Positions 34,635 to 38,462 of a DNA stretch of 64,000 nucleotides are shown one piece after another. Below the pieces are notes generated by a model. That model was not told where the DNA came from. It saw only the letters and a list, made by a program, of their open reading frames with translations, and ran no database searches. Each line of letters begins with the position of its first letter. Within the stretch, counting starts at the first letter, position 1. This DNA is from Candidatus Thiodiazotropha sp. (ex Codakia rugifera) (lineage in GTDB: Bacteria > Pseudomonadota > Gammaproteobacteria > Chromatiales > Chromatiaceae). A program made the translations under genes and the position numbers. The DNA lies in contig JAHXHN010000001.1 in assembly GCA_025656675.1 (NCBI GenBank), forward strand, positions 587,501 through 651,500. The letters run 5' to 3'.

Positions 34635-35252
34635 ATGAATTCCTATTATCATCGGGCCCATTTTCTAAAAAGTGCGGCCCAACTCTCCCAATCACCTGAT
34701 GATAGCGGCCTTGAAGTCGCATTTGCCGGACGCTCAAACGCAGGCAAGTCGAGTGCCTTGAATACCCTGTGCAACCAAAAATCGCTCGCTCGCACCAGTA
34801 AGACTCCCGGTCGCACCCAACTTTTGAATTTCTTTACCCTGGATGACAACCGTCGTCTGGTGGACCTGCCAGGTTATGGCTATGCAAAAGTGGCCGAATC
34901 CGTTAAACGACAGTGGCAGCAGACTTTGGCTAACTATATCGAGCATCGCCAATGCCTGCGGGGCCTGGTCCTGCTAATGGATATTCGACACCCACTGACT
35001 GCTTTCGACATGCAGATGCTACAGTGGAATACCCACCATGGCCTGCCAACGCACATTCTCCTGACCAAAGCCGATAAATTGAAAAGCGGTGCAGCTAAAA
35101 ATGTCCTGTTAAAGGTAAAAAAAGCGTTGAGCGATCATCCTGAGATCTCTGTACAAAGCTTTTCTTCACTGAAAAAGCAAGGCATCGACGAATGTCACCA
35201 AGTGCTTGATGTCTGGTTCGATCTGGGACAACTGGAAACACCAACGAAGTAG
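34635..35252 (+). CDS. engB: Ribosome biogenesis GTP-binding protein EngB (YsxC/YihA)
   Basis: The 205 residues form a TRAFAC GTPase with G1 GRSNAGKSS (about 32-40), G2 [10 protein letters not shown]3 DLPGYGYA and G4 TKADK. It is needed for large ribosomal subunit assembly. It is convergent with polA, the same arrangement as yihA and polA in E. coli. That synteny matters because the gap between them hosts small RNAs in other gammaproteobacteria. Confidence 0.95.
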
Positions 35253-35337: not shown

Positions 35338-35537
35338 AAATGAACGCGAATAAACATAAATATTTCATATTACTATCTCTGGTCGAAAAATAGTTAACGG
35401 CAAATTCTGATCAATGACATGGTACCTGCTAAACAACCATTACTATGAATAACAATTAGTTATAGAAATAAGGCACTATCTGATGAGCGCTGAATCATGA
35501 ATTAATTTTCCACATTTGCGTTAATTCGCGTTCATTT
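35338..35537. repeat. Inverted repeat pair bounding an AT-rich 200-base segment
   Basis: AAATGAACGCGAAT (35338-35351) and its exact complement ATTCGCGTTCATTT (35524-35537) face each other across about 170 bases that hold no gene. The similarity extends imperfectly outwards (GTCTGC on the left, ACGGAC on the right). It could be a small non-autonomous element or a dispersed intergenic repeat. No transposase or target duplication could be confirmed by eye. Confidence 0.5.
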
Positions 35538-35601
35538 ACGGACACTAAACAGAGCTATCGAGAAATGTCGCTGAGTGTGTTTGTTGGTTAGGGGAAGGCC
35601 C

Positions 35602-35646
35602 AAAAAAAGAAAGCCCCATCAGTCTAAGGGGAGAGACTGACGGGGC
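35602..35646 (-). terminator. Rho-independent terminator downstream of polA / end of the candidate sRNA
   Basis: On the minus strand GCCCCGTCAGTCT pairs with AGACTGATGGGGC (one A-C mismatch, positions 35618 and 35641) around an 8-base loop, then TTTCTTTTTTT. The T-tract is on the minus side only, so it serves polA or the small RNA and not engB. Confidence 0.85.
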
Positions 35647-35706
35647 CGGATCTTCCCGGATGGGGTTACCGGGAAGGTTGGGTCGCAAAGGGAGGAAAAG
35701 CGACCC
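35602..35706 (-). ncRNA. Candidate small RNA at the polA-engB locus (Spot 42/ErsA position)
   Basis: Read on the minus strand, three stem-loops follow each other: GGGTCGC/GCGACCC (35706-35680), CTTCCCGG/CCGGGAAG (35676-35652) and a long GCCCC-TCAGTCT stem (35646-35613) followed by a T-rich tract (35612-35602). The loops are C-rich (UUUUCCUCCCUUU, UAACCCCAU, CUCCCCUU) and could pair with Shine-Dalgarno sequences. In E. coli Spot 42 and in Pseudomonas ErsA lie downstream of polA on the same strand, facing engB, exactly as here. It could instead be only a complex polA 3' end. The 5' end is not defined. Confidence 0.6.
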
Positions 35707-35753
35707 GTGCCGTACGACTTACAGACAGATAGACTGGCAAAAACGGGGAAAGT

Positions 35754-38462
35754 TCAGTGTGCTTCGTCCCAATTATCACCAACCCCCACCTCAACCAGCA
35801 GAGGCACTGCCAAGGTTGCCGCACTCTCCATATAATCCCGTAATTTTTGTGTCGCTTTTGCCACATACGCCGGCTCCACCTCTAAGACCAACTCATCATG
35901 AACCTGCATCAGCAAACGAGCCGGCGGAGCACTATTTTCGATCCAGCCATCCACTGCCAGCATTGCTCGTTTAATGATATCTGCTGCACTCCCCTGCATG
36001 GGGGCGTTGATGGCCGTACGCTCTGCGGCCGTCTTGCGCTGGTGATTCCGTGCATTGATATCGGGCAGATAGAGCCGGCGCCCAAACAGGGTTTCCACAT
36101 AGCCTTGCTGGTGGGCCTGTTCACGGGTTTGCTCCATGAATGTCGACACGCCCGGATAGCGCTTGAAATAGAGATCCACATAGGCCTGTGCAGCACTTCT
36201 TTCTATACCCAGTTGGCGAGCCAGGCCGAATGCAGACATACCATAGATCAGACCAAAATTGATCGCTTTGGCAGAACGCCGCTGTTCTGGAGTTACCTGC
36301 TCCAATGGCTCCTCGAATACCTCTGCCGCAGTGGCGCTGTGAATGTCCTTGCCTTCAGAAAAGGCACGCAACAACCCCTCATCACCGGAGAGATGAGCCA
36401 TGATCCTTAATTCGATCTGCGAATAATCCGCCGCCAACATCTTCCAACCCGGTTCTGGCACAAATGCCTGCCTGATACGACGGCCTGCCTGTGTCCGCAC
36501 CGGGATGTTCTGCAGGTTGGGATCGGATGATGAAAGTCTTCCGGTGGCCGCAACTGCCTGGTGGTAGGAAGTGTGTACACGACCGGTCTCAGGATTGGCC
36601 ATCTCAGGCAGTTTATCTGTATAGGTTGATTTGAGCTTCGAGACACCGCGATATTCAAGAATGACCGCAGGCAACTCATGACCCTGATCCGCCAGCTCAA
36701 CCAATACAGATTCGGCTGTAGAGGGTGCTCCCTTCGGTGTCTTTGTGATCACCGGCAGTGCCAGCTCGTTGAAAAAGATCTCGCCAATCTGCTTAGGAGA
36801 GCCCAGATTGAAACTGTGTCCGGCCAACCCATAGGCCTGCTGCTCCAGTTGGTGCATGCTTTTGGCCAGTTCATCACTCTGCTCTCTCAGCATCTTCCTG
36901 TCGACACGTATACCATGACGCTCCATCCGGGACAGTACGGGTATCAGTGCCACTTCGAGATCGGTAAACAATTGGCTAAGTAGGCGCTTACTATCAAGCT
37001 TTGGCCAGAGATAATTATGCAATTGTAGTGTGATGTCAGCATCTTCTGCTGCGTAAGGTGCGGCCACTTCCAAGTCGATCTGATTGAAGGTGAGCTGTTT
37101 CTTACCCTTTCCGGCAATGTCCTCGAAGTGGATAGTATCGTGCTGCAGATATTTCTTGGCCAAAGAGTCCATATCATGGCGAGTTGCCTTGGAATCAAGC
37201 ACATAGGACTCCAGCATGGTGTCGTAGGCAATCCCTTGCATCTTGATGCCATAACGTGCCAGCACACTCATATCATATTTTAAATTCTGACCAACCTTTT
37301 TAAGTGATGGATCCTCTAGAAGCGGCTTTATCTGAGTAAGTACCCACTCTCGCTGAAGCTGTTCAGGTGCGCCAGGGTAATCATGGTCAACCGGAACATA
37401 GGCCGCCTCGCCTGGCTGTATGGCAAATGACAGGCCAACCAGATCTGCCGACATATAGTCAAGGCTTGTGGTTTCGGTATCAAAGGCGAATAGATCACAG
37501 GTCTTCAACCGCTCCATCCAGGCCAAGAATGCCTTTTCAGACAAGACTGTCTCATAAGTCCCCCTCTGTTGAGGTGGTGTTGGCGTTGTTTCGACCTTTA
37601 CCTCCTCATTCTGATCGAGACTCGCAAGCAGACGATTCGACTCCATCCACTGATAGTGATTACGTAGTGAGGCAACATCCTTTTGGCCTGGACGATAGTC
37701 TGTTGGCCCATGATCCAGGACTACATCAAGCTTTATTGTGGCCAGCAACTTTGAAAGGGGTAGCTGCGTTAAAGCAGCACGTAGGTTATCACCGATCTTA
37801 CCGGATATCTCTCCGGCATGATCAATGAGATTTTCAAGCGTTTCATAGGCTTGAAGCCATTTTGCTGCCGTTTTAGGTCCACATTTGGGCACACCTGGAA
37901 TATTGTCCACCGAATCCCCTACCAGAGCCAGATAGTCAATTATCTGATTTGGTCGGACACCAAACTTTTCCACTACCCCATCAATGTCTGTGGTCGTCTC
38001 TGACATGGTGTTGACCAAACTGACATGCTCATTGACCAACTGAGCCATGTCTTTGTCCCCAGTCGAGATGACGGTCTTTATCCCTTTCTCACTGGCTTGT
38101 TGTGCAAGCGTACCGATGACATCATCAGCCTCGACACCAGGCACCACCACCAGGGGTAATCCCATGGCCTTGATGATGTCGTGCAAGGGTTCTATCTGGC
38201 AGCGTAAATCGTCCGGCATCGGTGGGCGGTTTGCCTTGTAATCAGGGTAAAGCTCGTTTCTGAAACTGCCGCCAGGTGCATCGAAGATCACCGCAATATA
38301 GTCAGGATGGTAATCGTTAATCAGTCGACGCAGCATATTCAGTACCCCGACAATGGCGCCTGTCGGTTCACCTTGAGCGTTACTGAGGTCGGGAAGTGCA
38401 TGGTACGCACGAAATAGATAGGAGGAGCCATCTACCAGGACAAATGGGGGTGATTCAGACAT
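35754..38462 (-). CDS. polA: DNA polymerase I
   Basis: The 902 residues contain all three modules: the N-terminal 5' nuclease (DGSSYLFRAYHALP at the start, GVEADDVIGTLA, STGDKDMAQLV), the 3'-5' exonuclease with an intact FDTETTSLD motif (near 325), and the polymerase domain with ADYSQIELRIMAHLSGD and VHDELVLEV. The proofreading residues are kept, unlike in many PolA outside the Gammaproteobacteria. The enzyme fills gaps in repair and removes RNA primers. The 216-base gap to the divergent DsrC-like gene holds the promoters. Confidence 0.97.
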   Translation of the reverse strand: MSESPPFVLVDGSSYLFRAYHALPDLSNAQGEPTGAIVGVLNMLRRLINDYHPDYIAVIFDAPGGSFRNELYPDYKANRPPMPDDLRCQIEPLHDIIKAMGLPLVVVPGVEADDVIGTLAQQASEKGIKTVISTGDKDMAQLVNEHVSLVNTMSETTTDIDGVVEKFGVRPNQIIDYLALVGDSVDNIPGVPKCGPKTAAKWLQAYETLENLIDHAGEISGKIGDNLRAALTQLPLSKLLATIKLDVVLDHGPTDYRPGQKDVASLRNHYQWMESNRLLASLDQNEEVKVETTPTPPQQRGTYETVLSEKAFLAWMERLKTCDLFAFDTETTSLDYMSADLVGLSFAIQPGEAAYVPVDHDYPGAPEQLQREWVLTQIKPLLEDPSLKKVGQNLKYDMSVLARYGIKMQGIAYDTMLESYVLDSKATRHDMDSLAKKYLQHDTIHFEDIAGKGKKQLTFNQIDLEVAAPYAAEDADITLQLHNYLWPKLDSKRLLSQLFTDLEVALIPVLSRMERHGIRVDRKMLREQSDELAKSMHQLEQQAYGLAGHSFNLGSPKQIGEIFFNELALPVITKTPKGAPSTAESVLVELADQGHELPAVILEYRGVSKLKSTYTDKLPEMANPETGRVHTSYHQAVAATGRLSSSDPNLQNIPVRTQAGRRIRQAFVPEPGWKMLAADYSQIELRIMAHLSGDEGLLRAFSEGKDIHSATAAEVFEEPLEQVTPEQRRSAKAINFGLIYGMSAFGLARQLGIERSAAQAYVDLYFKRYPGVSTFMEQTREQAHQQGYVETLFGRRLYLPDINARNHQRKTAAERTAINAPMQGSAADIIKRAMLAVDGWIENSAPPARLLMQVHDELVLEVEPAYVAKATQKLRDYMESAATLAVPLLVEVGVGDNWDEAH

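Follow-up and report, generated by a model that had tools for sequence, protein, structure and literature searches.

The 64,000-nt stretch of Candidatus Thiodiazotropha DNA analysed here (the window) contains, between polA and engB, what is very probably the gene for an sRNA, about 120 nt long, that acts in trans, is transcribed from a sigmaE-type promoter and uses C-rich loops to repress mRNAs with G-rich ribosome-binding sites. It would be the Thiodiazotropha-type member of a polA/engB-linked group of RNAs that includes sX13 and anti-hemB. The evidence computed here comprises sequence, structure, covariation, conservation, synteny, a promoter motif, and the presence of RpoE-RseA and of Hfq. 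The predicted sRNA occupies 35602–35722 on the minus strand, as delimited by the promoter position and the terminator, with the 5’ end estimated from the -10 element. It lies downstream of polA, the gene for DNA polymerase I (35754–38462, minus strand; NCBIfam NF004397, 1220.8 bits), whose TGA stop codon is at 35756–35754 (minus strand), only about 47 nt from the first hairpin. From the other side, the gene for the EngB/YsxC GTPase of the YihA/YsxC type (34635–35252, plus strand; TIGR03598, 252.3 bits) converges on it.

The RNA has three predicted hairpins, all on the minus strand. Hairpin 1 (35680–35706, stem 35706–35700/35686–35680) has the loop UUUUCCUCCCUUU, in which the CCUCCC is unpaired. 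Hairpin 2 (35652–35676, stem 35676–35669/35659–35652), recognised from the fold and from pairing across the genus, has the loop UAACCCCAU. Hairpin 3 (35612–35647, stem 35647–35634/35625–35612, loop CUCCCCUU) is also an intrinsic terminator, supported by a terminator scan as well as by the fold and genus pairing, and the T-tract that follows it in the sequence and in the scan (UUCUUUUUUU, 35602–35611, minus strand) marks the expected 3’ end. The hairpins are preceded by a 5’ leader, GTAAGTCGTACG (35711–35722, minus strand), which is nearly invariant in the genus and for which a weak stem alone is predicted.

The minimum free energy of the minus strand over 35602–35753 is -60.1 kcal/mol, compared to a mean of -35.7 for shuffled sequences (z -7.13), and none of 200 shuffles was as good. 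Unpaired probabilities of the loop motifs are 1.00 for CCUCCC, 0.99 for ACCCCA and 0.86 for UCUCCCC. This fold, together with the NCBIfam assignments of the neighbours, confirms the layout given in a preliminary description of this DNA – three hairpins whose loops are C-rich, the last forming a terminator, placed behind polA on its own (minus) strand and facing engB. The further claim of a discrete sRNA gene with exposed C-rich loops, at the locus known for Spot 42 and ErsA, looks correct. That description mentions neither the sigmaE-type promoter at the end of polA nor any likeness to sX13 and anti-hemB.

A simple scan found the terminator on the minus strand only. Terminator-like and sigma70-like sites numbered two each in a 2.2-kb region, against 2.2 each in shuffles, which is no excess; the case for an sRNA therefore rests on fold and conservation and not on the scan. 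The plus strand of the hairpin region folds too (z -4.41), but the scan gave no terminator there, and a bidirectional terminator was rejected.

The -35 element of the promoter, GAACTT (35750–35755, minus strand), overlaps the polA stop codon and is invariant in all 22 genomes of the genus that were aligned. The TC of the -10 element, TCTAT (35729–35733, minus strand), comes 16 nt after GAACTT, and the GTC at alignment columns 22–24 is likewise invariant in 22 of 22, while the mean conservation of the spacer is 0.50. We take GAACTT-N16-TC to be sigmaE-type, going by the consensus of such promoters. Counted from the polA stop, GAACTT starts at -2, +30, +84 or +86 in the genus, and the distance from the promoter motif to the CCTCCCT loop is constant at 59–60 nt – with a wider gap behind polA, promoter and RNA are displaced as one block. 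The genome encodes an RpoE that is above its family cut-off (320 bits), an adjoining RseA_N protein, and Hfq. The sRNA is probably switched on by cell-envelope stress. Since the promoter motif is conserved, readthrough from polA appears unlikely to be the sole source of the RNA.

The C-rich unit is present in all 22 genus genomes searched, including the one studied here; among named sequences, the polA end of the window is closest to a Thiodiazotropha record, at 79% identity. Its stems comprise 29 pairs in the genus alignment, with 99.5% of cells paired (98.5% in shuffles) and four pairs changed on both sides; this set is free of hit selection but low in sequence variation. The leader (columns 34–45) has a mean conservation of 0.99, compared to 0.95 in the hairpin region, and could be a second pairing region. 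Outside the genus, blastn matched none of 18 genomes, and covariance models were therefore used.

The polA loci for the survey were drawn from the 343 of 369 sampled genomes of the class Gammaproteobacteria that had a polA match; each species in the sample was represented by a single genome, and strict filters were applied in scoring. The 110 loci were fetched as sets of 30 and 80, the 80 being taken from the best polA matches, mostly one per family. In the 107 loci with at least 250 nt downstream of polA, two or more hairpins with C-rich loops were found within 220 nt in 34, and three in 14. The corresponding numbers for hairpins with G-rich loops, a control equivalent to reading the other strand, were 4 and 1.

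A covariance model, R2, was built from 31 aligned units with 24 base pairs. The window is one of the 31, so that its own R2 score of 80.9 bits (35707–35604) is high by construction; the two features of the group, C-rich loops and polA/engB synteny, are both present in the window copy on direct reading. No unit came from Xanthomonadaceae or Pseudomonas, as far as the sources were named or recognised. The pairs of hairpin 1, missed by the MAFFT-based consensus, were added by hand, and covariation among the 31 sequences is partly circular because they were picked for clear hairpins. Among survey loci outside the model, 31 of 93 match R2 at E ≤0.001, 30 of them on the polA strand; E-values of this model are rough. 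The second-best place in the Thiodiazotropha genome scores 31.2 bits, and R2 scores of 26–34 bits are for this reason unspecific on their own.

R2 matches at E ≤0.01 were found in 209 of the 369 class genomes, or in 188 of 348 when the 21 genomes that supplied model sequences are left out. Two cultivable relatives, Thiocapsa roseopersicina (L063) and Imhoffiella purpurea (L087), also have the unit. The R2 search gave no match in some close relatives (L054, L056), nor in either genome from other genera of the same GTDB family (G165, G278). Outside the class but within the phylum, 19 genomes had weak matches of at most 38.5 bits.

Among the 83 matches listed in genomes that also have a listed polA position, 42 are within 1 kb downstream on the polA strand, 4 (in 3 genomes) are close on the other strand, and 37 are elsewhere, a few of them 1–2.3 kb off. 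Without the 16 model sequences, which had been picked beside polA, 26 of 67 listed matches are within 1 kb downstream on the polA strand. Units beside polA on the opposite strand were seen in L255 (genome G310), L230 (G038), G265 and G238. Of 30 loci fetched for the best R2 matches, 29 adjoin polA and/or engB; leaving out 10 model loci, this is the case for 19 of 20, the exception (L259) adjoining neither. Six of the fetched stretches (L244, L246, L247, L250, L263, L268) contain engB without polA, and in all six the RNA faces engB. The home of the RNA is thus the junction of polA and engB, and in those loci observed where this junction is split, the RNA remains with engB.

Structure and promoter were examined in a held-out set of 48 matches, taken from 46 sources that had contributed nothing to the model; none of the matches shares its sequence with a model unit. 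These matches have 91.9% of cells paired, compared to 74.0% in shuffles, and 23 of the 24 pairs have changes on both sides, figures that lean towards the model structure because the matches were chosen among the stronger ones and aligned with the model. Sliding the partners by one column reduced pairing to at most 56.7%. A CCC is present in loop 1 of all 48 held-out units, in loop 2 of 40, in loop 3 of 39, and in all three loops of 32, while GGG occurs in any loop of only two.

The promoter motif is independent evidence, because R2 holds no upstream sequence. At positions -66 to -45, 35 of the 48 held-out units have the exact sigmaE-type motif (shuffle mean 0.08, maximum 1), and 43 have it with at most one mismatch (shuffle mean 0.59, maximum 3). 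In a control of 150 nt downstream, with the motif allowed anywhere, the numbers were 2 and 4 of 46. Pooling model and held-out units gives 48 exact motifs and 68 with at most one mismatch in 79 units. In a list of 90 loci, partly hand-chosen, the motif was exact in 48 and absent from 16. Not every member of the group has the promoter, since none of the three sX13 loci checked has the motif.

Rfam returned no match in the window at gathering cut-offs. In a sensitive search of the 401 bases at 35400–35800, the best matches were sX13 (RF02232; 29.6 bits, E 0.0007, full length 1–115) and anti-hemB (RF02837; 25.6 bits, E 0.0006, also full length), which fell short of their cut-offs of 50 and 49.5. 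ErsA/Pseudomon-1 (RF01719, cut-off 50) did not appear in this region even with E allowed up to 10, and Spot 42 (RF00021, gathering score 80) gave no match in the window in either the normal or the sensitive search.

In layout and location the RNA agrees with sX13, whose gene also follows polA on the same strand and encodes three stem-loops with C-rich loops, the third being a terminator. It has been published as restricted to Xanthomonadaceae. According to the description in PMC3771888, sX13 represses its targets through G-rich motifs, with both these motifs and the C-rich loops required, and acts independently of Hfq; the same paper places it at the locus of Spot 42 and likens its loop design to that of the alphaproteobacterial alpha-r7 RNAs. 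R2, though built from other bacteria, matches sX13 at 40–43 bits in three of three loci. The two RNAs differ in that loop 1 is CCUCCC here and has a CCCC motif in sX13, and in the sigmaE-type promoter, present here and lacking in the three sX13 loci. In the reverse direction, the sX13 model had matches at E ≤1 in 34 of the 369 class genomes (strict filters), of which three exceeded the cut-off; the window copy was not returned. Ten of 30 such loci fetched contain the end of polA, among them the three over the cut-off and the next five by score.

Anti-hemB, also called Burkholderia RNA 7, has a hairpin 1 consensus in Rfam that is nearly the same as that of the group. It corresponds to ncS04, reported in PMC5688073 as a 105-nt sRNA from RNA sequencing, named in a Northern blot figure, said to bind Hfq, and unchanged in all seven conditions of the qPCR table. 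There is no common Hfq rule for the group, since sX13 acts without Hfq while ncS04 reportedly binds it. One engB locus, L244, passes the anti-hemB cut-off (51.7 against 49.5 bits) and scores 87.1 bits with R2; there the RNA faces engB and polA is elsewhere, whereas the window copy adjoins polA. On ten loci of the group, the anti-hemB model gave sub-threshold matches in nine, the window locus alone being without a match at E 0.01.

ErsA has the polA locus and a terminator hairpin with a C-rich loop in common with the window RNA, and four of five ErsA-type loci checked also have a sigmaE-type promoter, equally far from the RNA. According to PMC5819304 and PMC7565897, ErsA requires sigma22, which is the homologue of sigmaE. 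R2 gave weak matches (26–34 bits) in 27 of 28 Pseudomonas-type loci, one of which, L102, is titled Pantoea but matches Rfam Pseudomon-1, and in four loci with a Pseudomon-1 match the R2 match overlaps it; the terminator may account for most of this weak score. A difference is that in most of 22 ErsA-type loci listed the hairpin before the terminator has a short (G/A)CCCTA-type loop, and in two (L086 and L103) it has no C-rich loop. Spot 42 has the position downstream of polA in common with the window RNA. Homology to it was rejected: Rfam gave no match in the window, and R2 scored 16.5 bits (E 0.11) in one of two Spot 42 loci and had no match in the other.

The window RNA, sX13 and anti-hemB appear to belong to one widespread, mostly unannotated group. 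The earlier statement that the sequence looks unrelated to Spot 42 and ErsA holds in that no Rfam cut-off is reached, and needs qualifying for ErsA, with which the promoter type and the C-rich terminator loop are shared and whose loci R2 matches weakly in 27 of 28 cases. The suggestion of an unrecognised member was right in outline, with sX13 and anti-hemB rather than Spot 42 as the closest known RNAs, and that of a new family was too strong for one RNA that belongs to a widespread group including known ones.

The nearness of hairpin 1 to the polA stop (about 47 nt), and a -35 element that overlaps this stop, would also fit an RNA derived from the 3’ UTR, in which the hairpins are the terminator region of the polA mRNA, released by processing and without a promoter of their own. 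This origin is decidedly improbable – the ends of the promoter are invariant while its spacer varies, promoter and RNA shift as a block when the polA gap grows, and the exact motif is also found where the RNA faces engB without polA (L244, L247, L250, L263, L268). A promoter motif of its own likewise argues against the unit being only a terminator or insulator between the converging polA and engB, with no regulatory function in trans. Such a role would suit a position between convergent genes with a terminator at the end, as well as the units on the other strand beside polA in three genomes (four matches). But one hairpin would be enough where there are three, some genomes have tandem copies, and the C-rich loops are strand-specific (of 107 loci, 34 have two or more C-loop hairpins, compared to 4 for G-loops); we consider a role confined to termination to have very little probability.

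It is also unlikely that the RNA is a sponge that binds a protein or another sRNA rather than the ribosome-binding sites of mRNAs. RNAs that titrate proteins are highly structured and have repeated similar loop motifs, and the window RNA resembles them in both respects. To our knowledge, no protein recognises CCUCCC loops. Against a sponge, the C-rich motif is complementary to G-rich ribosome-binding sites, and sX13, of like design, is reported in PMC3771888 to act on mRNAs via its C-rich loops.

In the mechanism proposed for a repressor of G-rich ribosome-binding sites, in which transcription, sigmaE dependence, base pairing, targets and the sense of regulation are all predictions, RpoE would transcribe the sRNA from its own sigmaE-type promoter upon envelope stress, and the third hairpin would end the transcript at about 120 nt. 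Three stable stems would expose the single-stranded loops CCUCCC, ACCCC and UCUCCCC, and these, by analogy with sX13, may base-pair with several mRNAs at G-rich sequences in the Shine-Dalgarno or start region. The paired mRNAs would be translated less, the sRNA acting in trans. The constancy of ncS04/anti-hemB by qPCR counts against a simple stress story.

G-rich ribosome-binding sites that the loops might pair with exist in the genome. The pattern AGGGAGG-N4-9-ATG occurs 50 times, compared to 24 for the pattern read backwards, and AAGGGGAG-N4-10-ATG occurs 17 times, compared to 7. Of these 67 places, 47 were fetched, and in 14 of them the ATG starts an open frame of at least 100 amino acids. 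The 14 include envelope genes (kdsC, murG and a gene for an OmpA-domain lipoprotein) and genes without an envelope link, e.g. for a TIR-domain protein and a contractile-injection tube protein; the enolase and glycosidase starts are probably internal, because the matches begin well inside the profiles. Among genomes of the genus, other genera being excluded, 12 of 15 keep the G-rich site of kdsC, and 6 of 10 keep that of the lipoprotein gene (not counting one row truncated at the 5’ end and one that belongs to a different genus), both counts being uncontrolled for ordinary conservation of ribosome-binding sites. On this sequence evidence kdsC, murG and the OmpA-domain lipoprotein gene are tentative candidate targets.

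Both of the main features have precedents – the C-rich triple hairpin in sX13, and sigmaE-type control at this locus in ErsA. The open-access literature searched describes neither the presence of both in one RNA, nor the spread over more than half of the class genomes sampled, nor a connection of sX13 with anti-hemB, and no paper in it links these RNAs; in Rfam, sX13, anti-hemB and Pseudomon-1 belong to no clan. It is an evenly balanced question whether there was one ancestral envelope-stress sRNA at the polA-engB junction of Gammaproteobacteria (in the GTDB sense, with the Burkholderia group included), with sX13, anti-hemB and ErsA as lineage-specific descendants and many members unannotated. 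If so, the RNA would repress G-rich ribosome-binding sites throughout the class under the control of sigmaE, a counterpart of RybB and MicA in enteric bacteria. The survey adds the presence of the RNA across much of the class, and sigmaE as its likely regulator. With a joint model, many RNAs now below every Rfam cut-off would receive a label, and it would suggest envelope-stress sRNAs in further bacteria, in which we know of none. The idea that the RNA blocks ribosome-binding sites also becomes testable for an uncultured animal symbiont, by means of heterologous reporters.

Some other arrangements were seen among the R2 matches. Arrays of four tandem matches are present in each of three genomes, G287 (L188), G195 (L027/L264) and G303 (L032). 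Three loci of a single genus (g27, family f22; L035, L038 and L039) have two tandem matches each, with polA and engB absent from the stretch; a gene for an RlmL-type methyltransferase is beside the unit in L035 and L038, and L038 also has one for a pseudouridine synthase. The 31.2-bit place in the Thiodiazotropha genome itself (L273, contig C11, 1400–1650, minus strand) looks like a terminator of two hairpins with the loop motif CUCCUCC and seems to follow the end of a gene. This element is possibly a C-rich sRNA derived from a 3’ UTR, or else a chance resemblance.
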